In this document: piece after piece, positions 41,162 through 46,001 of the stretch
Numbering within the stretch: the stretch's first letter is position 1
How the letters are laid out: each line of letters opens with the position of its first letter
NCBI GenBank assembly: GCA_025363655.1
Contig: JANYDK010000049.1
Coordinates: 1-64,000, forward strand
Source of the DNA: Deltaproteobacteria bacterium
Lineage (GTDB): Bacteria > Myxococcota_A > Polyangia > Polyangiales > JADJMO01
DNA length: 64,000 nucleotides
Direction of reading: 5' to 3'
Notes under the pieces: generated by a model
What the model was told of the DNA's origin: nothing
The model's input: only the letters and a program-made list of their open reading frames with translations
Databases searched by the model: none
Translations under genes and position numbers: made by a program

Positions 41162-43114
41162 ATGTCGAAGAATGCGTCTCGATTGGGCCCGGCGTGGTTG
41201 CTCCTCTGCACGGTGTCGCTGGCGATGGCTTGTGGCTCCAGCGGCGACAGCGGCGGCGGTGATCCCGATGGTTCGGCCAATCCGGATGGCGGCCCGGGCG
41301 TCGACAGTGCGCCGCCTCCCGCGACGGTCGGAGTCTTCAACGAAGACTTCAGCTGGAAGGGCAAGCACGCGGCTGTCCTCAACAGCGGCAAGGGCACCGC
41401 GGTGTGGTGGAACGCCGACAATTGGGACGTCACCGGCGACACGCACGCGATCGGCGTGATGGGTGAGTGGTACTCGAAGCCGACGCCGAACGCGGCTGGC
41501 GGCACCACCGACACCAACAGCGGTCATGCGATCTACGTGCACAAGGCGGCGAAGCCTTGCGAGTTCTCGTCGACCACGGTCTGCGAGAGCGGCTACGACG
41601 ACGCGACGCTCGTTCCCGGCGGCGATGGCTCGCCTGGCGTCGGCGTCATGCACCTCGACGAGCAAGACATCATCGGCGCACGCTTGCGCAATCCGATCAG
41701 CATCACCGAAGACAAGCCTGGCATCGTCCGTCTCCGCGCGCCGCGCTTCGTGACGATGGGTCACTGGTGGGAAATCGGCCTCACGCCGGCTGATCGCGTG
41801 ATCGGCTCCGAGAACACCGTCGTCGAGAGCCAAGGGCAGGGCGATGGCCTCGCGGGCGTCGGCGATCCGCCGAACGAGCCGGGCAAGGGCGCCGGTCCGG
41901 GGCACGATCCGCAGGAAGAGTCGTTCAACGTCGTCGTCACCGGATCGATGGATCACGCGTGCGAGACCGAAGGATCGCTCGAGGGCTCGCTCACGCGCCT
42001 GGCGGTCAAGTCGCTGGTGAAGAACGGCAAGGCCGCAGGTGGCTTCAAGGCCGAGACCGGCATTCGCTACAACACCTGGACCCCGAAGAGCATCTTCGAC
42101 GACGCGTTCCACGGCACCTACGCGAAGGATCTGATTCGCCCTGGCCTCGACGGTCGCACGAAGCTGCCGGCGTCGTTCCTCAAGGGGGACAAGACCGAAG
42201 ATCCGATCAAGGTCGCGGCCGCCAACGTCGCCGATCAGTACAACCTCTATCTCTGGCAGTTCGAGTTCCGGCCGAGCGGCGTCGACGTCAAGGCCGACCT
42301 CAACGACGGGGCCGGGCTCGTGCTCCTCGAGCACTTCAACCTCGGCGTGCCGTGGAACAGCGTCTACGTGCACTTGATGACGGTGGCGTACCAGAACGAT
42401 CACCATCCGCAGGTCGAGAAGGGTTGCCCGTATCTTCCGGTGCCGTTCACGCAGCGCGAGATGCGCTTCCGCACCATCACCATCGGGCCGGTGCAGTACA
42501 CCAAGACGGCGATTTTTCCGCCGGACGGCGCGCCCACCGACGCGTCGGGCAACGTCATGCTCTGCGACGGCAAGAGCTGCGGTCGTTGGATGCGTTACGA
42601 CATGCGTGACACGCACAACTTCGGCGCGCCCGACTCGGTCACCGTCGGTGGCGTGGCGAGCATGCTCCCGAAGGCGAATCCTGCGAAATTCTCCTTCGTC
42701 AGCGACTACGCGCACGGGTCGAACGGTCACTTCGAGGGAGGGCTGCCGGCCGAGCCGTCGTTCGATCTCTACGTGCCGATAAGCGACGACGTGAAAGGCG
42801 CGAAGGCGGCGAACTTCGTCTACAACGCGATGGGCGCGAAGGGCGTCGCCAACCTGATCGTCAACGGGCACGCGGTCGGCGTGCTCCCCACCGCCGACAG
42901 CGTCGTCGGCGCTTCGGTGAAGAACGACATCCACGTCGATCCGGGATGCCCGGCCTACGACTGCATGTCGGTTCGTCGCTCGCTCGCGATCGATCCGGCA
43001 CTCCTCACCAAGGACGCAGCCGGCGGCTTGGCGCACATCCAGGTGGTGTTCGATCCGAAGCAGCTCGGCAGCGGAACCTTCATCGATCGGATCCAGCTCG
43101 AGCTCTTGCAGTGA
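41162..43114 (+). CDS. Large Trp-rich secreted lipoprotein, unknown family
   Basis: A 650-aa lipoprotein: signal peptide with lipobox LAMAC (Cys24), then a Ser/Gly/Asp/Pro-rich linker (about 25-55). GGAGG 6 bases upstream fixes the ATG. The mature part is beta-rich with clustered tryptophans (WKGKH, VWWNADNWD, EWYSK, GHWWEIG), several cysteines and histidines (NDHHPQVEKGC, GHDPQEE). I do not recognise the family. The next gene, a di-haem MauG/cytochrome-c-peroxidase-type lipoprotein, starts inside its stop codon (GTGA), so the two are translationally coupled and probably form a pair on the same membrane face. It might be a substrate or partner of the haem enzyme; this is inference. Confidence 0.75.
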   Translation: MSKNASRLGPAWLLLCTVSLAMACGSSGDSGGGDPDGSANPDGGPGVDSAPPPATVGVFNEDFSWKGKHAAVLNSGKGTAVWWNADNWDVTGDTHAIGVMGEWYSKPTPNAAGGTTDTNSGHAIYVHKAAKPCEFSSTTVCESGYDDATLVPGGDGSPGVGVMHLDEQDIIGARLRNPISITEDKPGIVRLRAPRFVTMGHWWEIGLTPADRVIGSENTVVESQGQGDGLAGVGDPPNEPGKGAGPGHDPQEESFNVVVTGSMDHACETEGSLEGSLTRLAVKSLVKNGKAAGGFKAETGIRYNTWTPKSIFDDAFHGTYAKDLIRPGLDGRTKLPASFLKGDKTEDPIKVAAANVADQYNLYLWQFEFRPSGVDVKADLNDGAGLVLLEHFNLGVPWNSVYVHLMTVAYQNDHHPQVEKGCPYLPVPFTQREMRFRTITIGPVQYTKTAIFPPDGAPTDASGNVMLCDGKSCGRWMRYDMRDTHNFGAPDSVTVGGVASMLPKANPAKFSFVSDYAHGSNGHFEGGLPAEPSFDLYVPISDDVKGAKAANFVYNAMGAKGVANLIVNGHAVGVLPTADSVVGASVKNDIHVDPGCPAYDCMSVRRSLAIDPALLTKDAAGGLAHIQVVFDPKQLGSGTFIDRIQLELLQ

Positions 43115-44445
43115 GCTTGCGCGTTCGCTGGGCAAGCCTCGCCGTCGCCGCCGCGCCCGTCGTCGGCGCTGCGGTTGCGGCTTGCCACGGCGGGTCCTCG
43201 TCGGGAGGGCAGGTCGAGCCGCCGGCCATCGGTTTCTCTGCCGAGTGCGAAGGGCTCGGCCTGCCGAAGAGCGATTGCGATCGGTGGTCGCACATGGCGC
43301 TACCGCCCGCGCTCCCGGCGGCGAAGGGCAATCGTTTCGCCGACGACGAGAACGCCGCCAAGCTCGGCTTCGCGCTCTTCTTCGATCTCGGCTCACTCAC
43401 GTCGTCGACCGAGAAGACCGAGCGCTGCTCCGACTGCCACACGCCCGAGCGTGACTTCGCCAACAACGTCGTGATGCCCACCGGCGCGGGCCTCGTGCAA
43501 CGCAACGCGCTGTCGCTCGTCAACGCTGCGCGCACGTACCCGCACTTCTGGGATGGACGCGCCGACTCGCTTTGGTCGCAGTCGCTCCTCACCATCGAGA
43601 ACGTCGACGAGATGCTCGGCACTCGACTCGGCGTCGCGCACGCGGTGGCGCGCTCGTACCGCGAGGCGTACGAGCTCGTCTTTGGCGCACTCCCCGACTT
43701 CTCCGACGCCGTTCGGTTTCCTGCGCAAGGAAAGCCGGGGATGCCGGAGTGGGAGGCGATGACGAAAGCGGATCGCGACGCGGTCACGCAGGTCTACGTC
43801 AACGTCGGCAAGTCGTTCGAGGCCTACCTCCGCAAGATTGCGGCGGGACGCTCGGCGGTCGATCGCTTCATCGTCGGCGAGAGCGCTGCGTTGTCGACGA
43901 GGGCGAAGCTCGGTTTGCGTCTCTTCACGCTGAACGGCTGCCTCGATTGTCACTCCGGTCCGAACCTCAGTGACGGGCTCTATCACGGGCTCGACCTTCC
44001 GTTGCCGACCTACCCGCCGTTTCGCGCCAAGTCGGGCGCCGATCGCGGGCGTGCGCAGGGACTCGAGTTCCTCCAAGCCTCCGAGTTCAATTCGCTCTCG
44101 CCGTACTTCGACCGCCCTGCCGGTGAGACGCCGCGGATGGAGGAGGAGTTGGTGCCGATGCCCGACGGCATGTTCCTCACGCCGAGCCTGCGCAACGTCG
44201 GCGACACGGCGCCGTATGGGCACAACGGGGTCTTTGCGACGTTGGATGCAGTGGTTCGCTTTCACCTCGCGGGCGGTGGGCCAAGCGGGCACGAGCTGAC
44301 CGCGCATACGCTCTCCGAGGACGAGGTCGGGGCGCTGGTCGAATTCCTCCAGTCGCTGCGTGGCGACACGGCGCCCTTGCCGTGGTCGTTCTGGCCGAAG
44401 ATCGGCGGCGACGCCGGCGCCGACGGCTATCCCGACAGCGACTGA
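43111..44445 (+). CDS. Di-haem cytochrome c peroxidase/MauG-family lipoprotein
   Basis: A 444-aa exported haem protein starting at GTG inside the previous stop. The N-terminus is a signal peptide with lipobox VAAC (Cys25). Two c-type haem sites are present, CSDCH (106-110) and CLDCH (277-281), placed as in bacterial cytochrome c peroxidase/MauG proteins. The family motifs PHFWDGRADSLWSQ and TPSLRNVGDTAPYGHNG, with a likely distal His, are also visible. It either reduces hydrogen peroxide in the periplasm or, like MauG and MbnH, oxidises a partner protein. The coupled, Trp-rich upstream lipoprotein favours the second idea but does not prove it. Confidence 0.9.
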   Translation: MSLRVRWASLAVAAAPVVGAAVAACHGGSSSGGQVEPPAIGFSAECEGLGLPKSDCDRWSHMALPPALPAAKGNRFADDENAAKLGFALFFDLGSLTSSTEKTERCSDCHTPERDFANNVVMPTGAGLVQRNALSLVNAARTYPHFWDGRADSLWSQSLLTIENVDEMLGTRLGVAHAVARSYREAYELVFGALPDFSDAVRFPAQGKPGMPEWEAMTKADRDAVTQVYVNVGKSFEAYLRKIAAGRSAVDRFIVGESAALSTRAKLGLRLFTLNGCLDCHSGPNLSDGLYHGLDLPLPTYPPFRAKSGADRGRAQGLEFLQASEFNSLSPYFDRPAGETPRMEEELVPMPDGMFLTPSLRNVGDTAPYGHNGVFATLDAVVRFHLAGGGPSGHELTAHTLSEDEVGALVEFLQSLRGDTAPLPWSFWPKIGGDAGADGYPDSD

Positions 44446-44535: not shown

Positions 44536-45147
44536 ATGGTTCGACGAACGCAGGCGGAGCGAAGGGCAGAGACGAGGCTGGCGCTGCTCGATGCGACGCT
44601 CGCGTGTCTCTCCGAGCTCGGCTACGCGCGCACCACGACGACCGAGGTGGTGCGTCGGGCCGAACTCTCGCAGGGGGCGCTCTTCGCACACTTCCCAACC
44701 AAGTCGGCGCTGGTGGCGGCGGCGGCAGAGCAGCTCTTCGGCGGTCTCATCGAGTCGTATCGACATGCGTTTCGTCGCGCGCCGAAGAGTGAACATCCGG
44801 CGAAGGTGGCGCTGAAGCGCCTTTGGGAGCTCTTCCTCGATCCGAAGCTGCGCGTCGTCTACCTGCTCTACGCCGAAGCGCCGATGGATCCCGAGCTGCA
44901 CGCGGCTTTGCGGCCGGTGGTCGAGAACCACACAGTGAACGTCCTCGAGCTGGCGACGGTGCTCTTTCCGGAGCTGGCGACGTCGGAGGAGAAGCGGGTC
45001 TTCTTCGAGACGGCGGTGTTCGCGATGCAGGGCGCGTCGTTGCAGCGCGCGGTCTACACCAACCCCAAGCACGAAAAGGCGATGCTCGCGCAGTTCGCGC
45101 GCATGGCCGAGGCGATGTTCTCCGAGAGCGAGGCGAAGGCGTCATGA
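44536..45147 (+). CDS. TetR/AcrR-family transcriptional regulator
   Basis: A 203-aa repressor. The N-terminal DNA-binding domain is typical (TRLALLDATLACLSELGYARTTTTEVVRRAELSQGALFAHFPTKSALV, a helix-turn-helix at about 30-55); the C-terminal helical ligand domain is not family-specific. It probably binds the palindrome at 44494-44511 and controls itself and the coupled hydroxylase-like gene, whose ATG overlaps its stop (ATGA). The ligand might be a lipid or fatty acid, given its partner; this is inference. Confidence 0.9.
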   Translation: MVRRTQAERRAETRLALLDATLACLSELGYARTTTTEVVRRAELSQGALFAHFPTKSALVAAAAEQLFGGLIESYRHAFRRAPKSEHPAKVALKRLWELFLDPKLRVVYLLYAEAPMDPELHAALRPVVENHTVNVLELATVLFPELATSEEKRVFFETAVFAMQGASLQRAVYTNPKHEKAMLAQFARMAEAMFSESEAKAS

Positions 45148-46001
45148 GCGAACCGACCGTCTGGGCGATTCCCGTGTTTCTCATCTCGATGGGCGTCGAG
45201 GCCTTCGTGCTCTCGCGTCGAGGGCACGGCTACGAAGCCAAGGACACCGCCGCGAGCCTCAGTGGTGGGCTCGGCAGCCTGCTCGTGAAGGCGCCGCTCA
45301 AGGGCGCGACGTTGGCGCTCTGGTACGCGCTCTACGCGCATCGGCTCTTCGAGATCCCCGCCGGCGCTGCCGGTTGGGTGATGCTCATCTTCGCCGAAGA
45401 CCTTTGCTACTACTGGTTTCACAGGCTCTGCCACGAGGTGCGCATCTTCTGGGCGACGCACGTCGTTCATCACTCGAGCGAGCGCTACACGCTCTCGACC
45501 GCGCTTCGCCAGTCGTGGACCGCGCCCTTCGCTGGCTTCGTCTTCTGGTTGCCGCTCCCGCTCCTCGGCTTCCGGCCGGAGAACGTGCTCCTCGCGAACT
45601 CGTTCAGCCTGCTCTACCAATATTGGATTCACACCGAGACCATCGGCAAGCTCGGGCCGATCGAGTGGCTCTTCAACACGCCGTCGCATCATCGCGTTCA
45701 TCACGGCAGCAACCGCCAGTATCTCGATCGCAACCACGCCGGAATCTTCATCATTTGGGATCGGCTCTTCGGGACGTTCGAGCCCGAAGGCGAGAAAGTG
45801 GTCTACGGGCTGACGAAGAACGTCGGCAGCTTTCACCCGGTGACGCTGCAGTTCCACGAGCTGGTCGACATCGTGCGCGACGTGCGCGCGGCGCGGGGAG
45901 CGCGTGAGGTGTTGCACGCCATCTTCCGTTCGCCGGCGAGCCCGCCGATGCGATCGCGAGAGGAACGACACTCGGCGCCGGCCTCGAGCGTCACCACCTG
46001 A
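45144..46001 (+). CDS. Sterol desaturase/fatty acid hydroxylase superfamily protein
   Basis: A membrane-bound di-iron oxygenase, 285 aa. The histidine boxes of the superfamily are complete: HRLCH, HVVHH and HHRVHH (the last in FNTPSHHRVHHG). Four to five hydrophobic segments surround them. Relatives hydroxylate or desaturate sterols, fatty acids or alkyl ether lipids; the substrate here is unknown. It is translationally coupled to the TetR gene upstream, which suggests lipid-responsive control. The C-terminal 30 residues are polar and unlike the family. Confidence 0.88.
   Translation: MSEPTVWAIPVFLISMGVEAFVLSRRGHGYEAKDTAASLSGGLGSLLVKAPLKGATLALWYALYAHRLFEIPAGAAGWVMLIFAEDLCYYWFHRLCHEVRIFWATHVVHHSSERYTLSTALRQSWTAPFAGFVFWLPLPLLGFRPENVLLANSFSLLYQYWIHTETIGKLGPIEWLFNTPSHHRVHHGSNRQYLDRNHAGIFIIWDRLFGTFEPEGEKVVYGLTKNVGSFHPVTLQFHELVDIVRDVRAARGAREVLHAIFRSPASPPMRSREERHSAPASSVTT

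Follow-up and report, generated by a model that had tools for sequence, protein, structure and literature searches.

A coupled gene pair in Polyangiales encoding an unclassified lipoprotein and a MauG-like di-haem lipoprotein with histidine at the axial tyrosine position

The coupled genes and their surroundings

The window analysed here, a stretch of 64,000 nucleotides from the deltaproteobacterial contig JANYDK010000049.1, carries two overlapping genes whose products, P0001 and P0002, both begin with export signals of the lipoprotein type (Table 1). The GTGA overlap and the two lipobox-type N-termini, the latter read by eye, bear out the first-pass annotation, which had described a coupled lipoprotein and di-haem lipoprotein, and both of the tryptophan stretches that it named are found in P0001. 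With 12 tryptophans among its 650 residues, P0001 ranks fifth among the 38 proteins of at least 200 residues called in the window; it is tryptophan-rich, yet not exceptional within the window. Reading the open reading frames of the window places a ribosomal operon 5' of the pair; its 3' side has one TetR and one FA_hydroxylase gene. These last two, the regulator and the FA_hydroxylase-domain gene, are themselves joined by an ATGA overlap (window positions 44536-46001) and lie on the same strand as the P0001 and P0002 genes.

Table 1. Features of the P0001/P0002 gene pair, in window positions
Feature	Position	Strand	Detail or basis
P0001 gene, predicted lipoprotein of 650 aa, unnamed family (two known members)	41162..43114	+	ATG 41162 to TGA 43112-43114
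P0001 signal peptide and lipobox, AMA-C24	41162..41233	+	sequence read by eye
P0001 Trp cluster WWNADNW, residues 82-88	41405..41425	+	alignment with L225 relative
P0001 H201-W202-W203 of GHWWE, identical in L225 relative	41762..41770	+	alignment
P0001 YQNDHHPQ, residues 410-417; YQ-DHHPQ identical in L225 relative	42389..42412	+	alignment
GTGA overlap, P0001 stop and P0002 start	43111..43114	+
P0002 gene, predicted di-haem lipoprotein of 444 aa, CCP_MauG domain	43111..44445	+	GTG start 43111-43113
P0002 lipobox Cys25, VAA-C25	43183..43185	+	sequence read by eye
P0002 haem motif 1, CSDCH, residues 106-110	43426..43440	+
P0002 haem motif 2, CLDCH, residues 277-281	43939..43953	+
P0002 His385, position of MauG axial Tyr294	44263..44265	+	HMMER alignment to MauG chains

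A distant relative of P0001 and its di-haem neighbour

The first-pass annotation had not recognised the family of P0001, and indeed no Pfam or NCBIfam model matches it at E<=1, the MbnP and MopE models therefore included. Relatives are exceedingly scarce: P0001 is alone in its own genome, we found none in a scan of genome contigs or among plasmids, and in a sample of 377 genomes of the phylum the one genome with a match is that of P0001 itself, the rest being matches to the signal or linker part or short weak ones (E > 0.01), as is everything returned from 183 genomes of the order. Across the class, 7 of 317 genomes match at E<=0.001, namely the window's own, five in which the match is confined to residues 7-92, and one with the sole true relative (L225:4960-6570:-, on contig 692 of genome G562), which belongs to a different order and aligns over P0001 residues 59-648 at 30% identity (tblastn, E 5.5e-46). 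A profile built from the two members, run against the 377 phylum genomes, recovered P0001 itself and one linker match and no new member; the order of the L225 relative comprises a single genome. Solved structures gave chance matches only, both to P0001 and to the two-row profile, and a single-sequence AlphaFold model of P0001 reached a pLDDT of 31. A match of DUF5125 to a C-terminal piece (E 0.11) was set aside as no evidence.

The relative, too, has a di-haem gene as its coupled neighbour. Its ATG start lies within the stop codon of that gene (ATGA), which therefore sits upstream; compared with the window, the gene order is reversed. Lipoboxes are present in both products, and the enzyme scores 110 bits against CCP_MauG. 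All members of the P0001 family now known, two of two, thus have a MauG-like di-haem lipoprotein as neighbour. Neither of the two outcomes that the first-pass annotation had set against its proposal, a lipoprotein family usually lacking a MauG neighbour or tryptophans that are not conserved, was seen, although two is a small number. Genome G562 holds 4 CCP_MauG genes in 8.4 Mb, so that a random gene would adjoin one of them about once per thousand (an estimate assuming some 7,000 genes); near the other three there is no partner of the P0001 type or of the lectin-like type (see below). The recurrence in the relative makes the pairing more than chance, and an overlap in both gene orders is hard to obtain by chance, small as a sample of two is. 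Moreover, P0002 and the L225 enzyme fall in different clades, meaning that the pairing either came about twice or survived in two lineages. That a distant relative couples these two gene types as well, in the opposite order, suggests that P0001 and P0002 probably work together. The alternative of chance neighbours, in which P0001 would merely share a message with an enzyme to which it has no relation, P0002 being an envelope peroxidase of the ordinary kind, draws on the many MauG-like genes of the order that stand without a partner and on the near-orphan status of P0001; given that the one relative is likewise coupled to a di-haem gene, in a genome with about four of them, we regard it as quite improbable.

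P0001 and its relative are identical at 195 of 481 aligned positions and at 6 of 10 aligned mature tryptophans (W83, W88, W202, W203, W398 and W476), an excess with a hypergeometric P of 0.17, so tryptophan is not specially conserved; histidines are identical at 9 of 18 positions. GHWWE is fully intact in the relative, while WWNADNW reads HWNADAW, with W83, N84, A85, D86 and W88 identical and W82 replaced by histidine. Of the tryptophan clusters to which the first-pass annotation pointed, one is thus kept whole and the other in part, but conservation of tryptophans in general does not rise above the protein average. The aligned cysteines Cys267 and Cys422 of P0001 are both kept; its six others, arranged as three close pairs, are absent from the relative. 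YQNDHHPQ is a candidate metal site.

The di-haem enzyme and its axial position

P0002 scores 72.5 bits with the CCP_MauG model (PF03150), whose curated cut-off is 25.6, has two CXXCH motifs and also matches Cytochrom_C. It falls short of the models for the named enzymes, reaching 90 bits against the MauG equivalog cut-off of 443.85 (TIGR03791) and 93.3 bits against 362.85 for MbnH (TIGR04039). The earlier description of a MauG-like di-haem enzyme accordingly holds for domain and haem motifs, and not for these cut-offs or for the axial tyrosine: residues 349-385 align without a gap to MauG 258-294 (HMMER), so that His385 falls where MauG has Tyr294. The best-scoring MauG chain for P0002 is 3orv, which has histidine there and which we take to be the MauG Y294H mutant, the other MauG chains shown having tyrosine. 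Across 120 aligned di-haem enzymes this column holds tyrosine in 86, histidine in 15, phenylalanine in 10 and other residues in 9. All 15 histidine rows, P0002 included, lie in one clade (FastTree support 0.857); the L225 enzyme, outside that clade, has tyrosine.

A tyrosine ligand is held to be necessary for long-range tryptophan oxidation, and with His385 in its place a MauG-type reaction by P0002 is doubtful. According to one study (PMC6405878), the near-infrared feature of bis-Fe(IV) is lost in the variants MauG Y294H and BthA Y463H, the latter of which retains peroxide reduction with an external donor. These data weigh against the reading nearest to the original proposal, in which P0002 would act as a MauG or MbnH and, through a bis-Fe(IV) state, make a Trp-derived cofactor or a kynurenine metal site in P0001. 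In its favour are the kept pairing, the kept GHWWE and YQ-DHHPQ motifs, the tyrosine at the key position of the L225 enzyme and an interhaem tryptophan in P0002 (Trp147, in a column with tryptophan in 116 of the 120 enzymes); because of His385, and with scores so far under the MauG and MbnH cut-offs, we consider it unlikely. The Trp-derived cofactor or metal site first proposed for P0001 is, on the sequence evidence, somewhat weakened.

To our knowledge, MauG-like enzymes have few known partners; among them, MbnP is much smaller than P0001. PMC3621798 describes MauG-like enzymes paired with unrelated partners, including a tryptophan-to-kynurenine conversion in MopE, and presents MbnH and MbnP (TIGR04039 and TIGR04052) as a di-haem MauG-like enzyme beside a secreted partner, kept as a pair. 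The pair described here is alike in this arrangement, and unlike in the low MbnH score of P0002 and the missing MbnP match of P0001. It likewise resembles SACCP/MopE and CorB/CorA, where a surface partner adjoins a MauG-like enzyme; in MopE the Trp-derived kynurenine lies within a two-His copper site (PMC3423442), whereas the Cu-binding_MopE model finds no match in P0001. With MauG and methylamine dehydrogenase the likeness is on the enzyme side, in the two haems, the interhaem tryptophan and a conserved glutamate of P0002, and the differences are histidine for axial Tyr294 and a partner that is no dehydrogenase subunit. P0001/P0002 is a new variation on a known theme, the pairing of di-haem enzymes with unrelated partners; within the portions of the open-licence PMC literature covered, we found nothing on P0001-like proteins or on paired di-haem enzymes of the His type.

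Lectin-like partners of related enzymes and the role of the pair

The nearest enzyme to P0002 in the order (genome G437, locus L032) has a lipoprotein of 685 residues directly upstream. Using P0002 and three of its relatives as queries, we collected 80 loci, their genes called by a GC-frame script that misses low-GC genes and left the di-haem gene uncalled in some loci. A relative of the 685-residue lipoprotein, here family C, adjoins the enzyme in 11 of the 80 (L142, one of them, being the same record as L032), and all 11 belong to the 14 His rows from outside the window (11/14); beside the enzymes of the remaining loci there was none. In the unpaired His rows, L148 and L149 yielded no such gene and the L151 contig stops at the enzyme. 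The His-type enzymes of L148 and L149 stand behind genes that by eye resemble polysaccharide co-polymerase and O-antigen ligase genes. Lipoprotein and enzyme share a strand in L139, L142 and L185, are divergent in seven loci and converge in L145. The family-C lipoproteins (loci L139, L140, L141, L142, L144, L145, L146, L150, L154, L171 and L185; 565-690 residues) have six invariant cysteines and invariant Trp347 and Trp448 (L141 numbering).

A second group of lipoproteins, family A, adjoins di-haem enzymes with phenylalanine (in one case leucine) at the axial position in several genomes, among them the window's own, which has three such pairs (contigs 76, 127 and 146). Those three pairs (L100:702-5510; L104:4545-6872 on the minus strand, with its neighbour; L112:1909-5383) have phenylalanine at the axial tyrosine position; two of them contain DUF5648 matches, and in L100 a gene for a GDSL-lipase lipoprotein lies between the family A partner and the enzyme. 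Families A and C belong to a single superfamily (hhalign probability 100, E 4.9e-79). In a model of a family-C member (pLDDT 72, pTM 0.79), residues 238-563 are predicted to form a sandwich like that of legume lectins and GH16 (best Z 14.4).

Like P0001, the lectin-like proteins of families A and C are large lipoproteins in the same slot beside the same enzyme clade; unlike them in sequence, P0001 shows no detectable relation. Its membership of the superfamily was rejected, hmmsearch and hhalign scores lying within the range of shuffled sequences; by eye, some motifs of the two look similar (D..QD, HWW/YWW). P0002 belongs to the clade paired with family C; the enzymes paired with family A fall, together with the L225 enzyme, in a different clade of 14 rows (support 0.911). 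The P0001 family thus stands in the lectin-like partner's place in two enzyme clades, and seems to have filled this slot twice. Of all the observations, this exchange of partners hints most strongly at equivalent jobs for the two kinds of partner.

Many of the family-C pairs lie in exopolysaccharide loci of the Eps type. The 85 proteins flanking the 11 His-type paired loci include 9 GT2, 6 WecG, 10 hexapeptide transferase, 4 AMP-binding and 4 NAD_synthase matches, together with matches to EpsA (6), EpsC (9), EpsU (5) and also EpsV models, the Eps matches being taken at E<=1e-10 in place of curated cut-offs; eps genes are part of the Myxococcus xanthus exopolysaccharide pathway (PMC7484181). 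None of these appears among the 25 of 106 families listed for the 83 proteins that flank 11 Tyr-type loci, single-match families falling partly outside those 25. These observations underlie the main rival to an enzyme-substrate relationship, namely that P0001 and P0002 act jointly on an outside polymer, with P0001 binding or cutting polysaccharide rather than serving as a substrate and P0002 supplying or removing oxidising power. The kin pairs in exopolysaccharide loci fit such joint action equally well, and the predicted lectin/GH16-like sandwich of the same-slot partner and the wealth of WecG, GT2, hexapeptide transferase and Eps matches relative to Tyr-type loci speak for it; yet the window pair, set between its ribosomal operon and the TetR and FA_hydroxylase genes, is itself outside any exopolysaccharide-type locus, and P0001 has no sequence link to the lectin-like family. 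We consider joint glycan action rather less likely than not.

Our preferred reading, held with moderate confidence, is that of a real, conserved enzyme-partner pair at the cell envelope in which P0002 oxidatively matures P0001. The two would be made as a dedicated pair from one message and lipid-anchored to the envelope, where P0002, using peroxide, would draw electrons from P0001 or from what P0001 holds; P0001 might thereby be matured or switched through side-chain oxidation, with a conserved Trp/His cluster as the obvious candidate. Because P0002 has histidine at the MauG axial tyrosine position, its chemistry would run via a ferryl/radical, peroxidase-like state and not the bis-Fe(IV) state of MauG. 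That P0001 is the partner acted on, which of its residues is the target and what serves as oxidant are points that we infer. A bolder form of enzymatic maturation, in our view rather unlikely, would make P0001 the founder of a novel substrate-lipoprotein family, its conserved Trp/His site being assembled by di-haem enzymes from two clades, with P0002 as a natural MauG Y294H form; if so, P0002 would modify a protein without a Tyr-ligated bis-Fe(IV) state. A conserved pair with a naturally His-ligated enzyme would offer a direct test of the bis-Fe(IV) requirement, and the swap between lectin-like and P0001-type partners points to a wider Myxococcota system of coupled di-haem enzymes and envelope lipoproteins, in part linked to exopolysaccharide loci.

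We discarded the notion of a partner for each MauG-like gene of the order: most of those encoding a fused thioredoxin-like domain (about 600 residues; the domain read by eye from CGTC-like motifs) have varied neighbours. In L114, L121 and L125-L128, from several close genomes, a near-identical MauG-like lipoprotein stands beside a gene of about 610 codons, unrelated to the window pair. In L131, L137 and L138 (and L133), longer MauG-like lipoproteins (about 540-600 residues) have Trp-rich coupled partners of about 380-410 residues, also lipoproteins, and the partners in L131 and L138, the two scanned, match BNR/YCF48 propellers.
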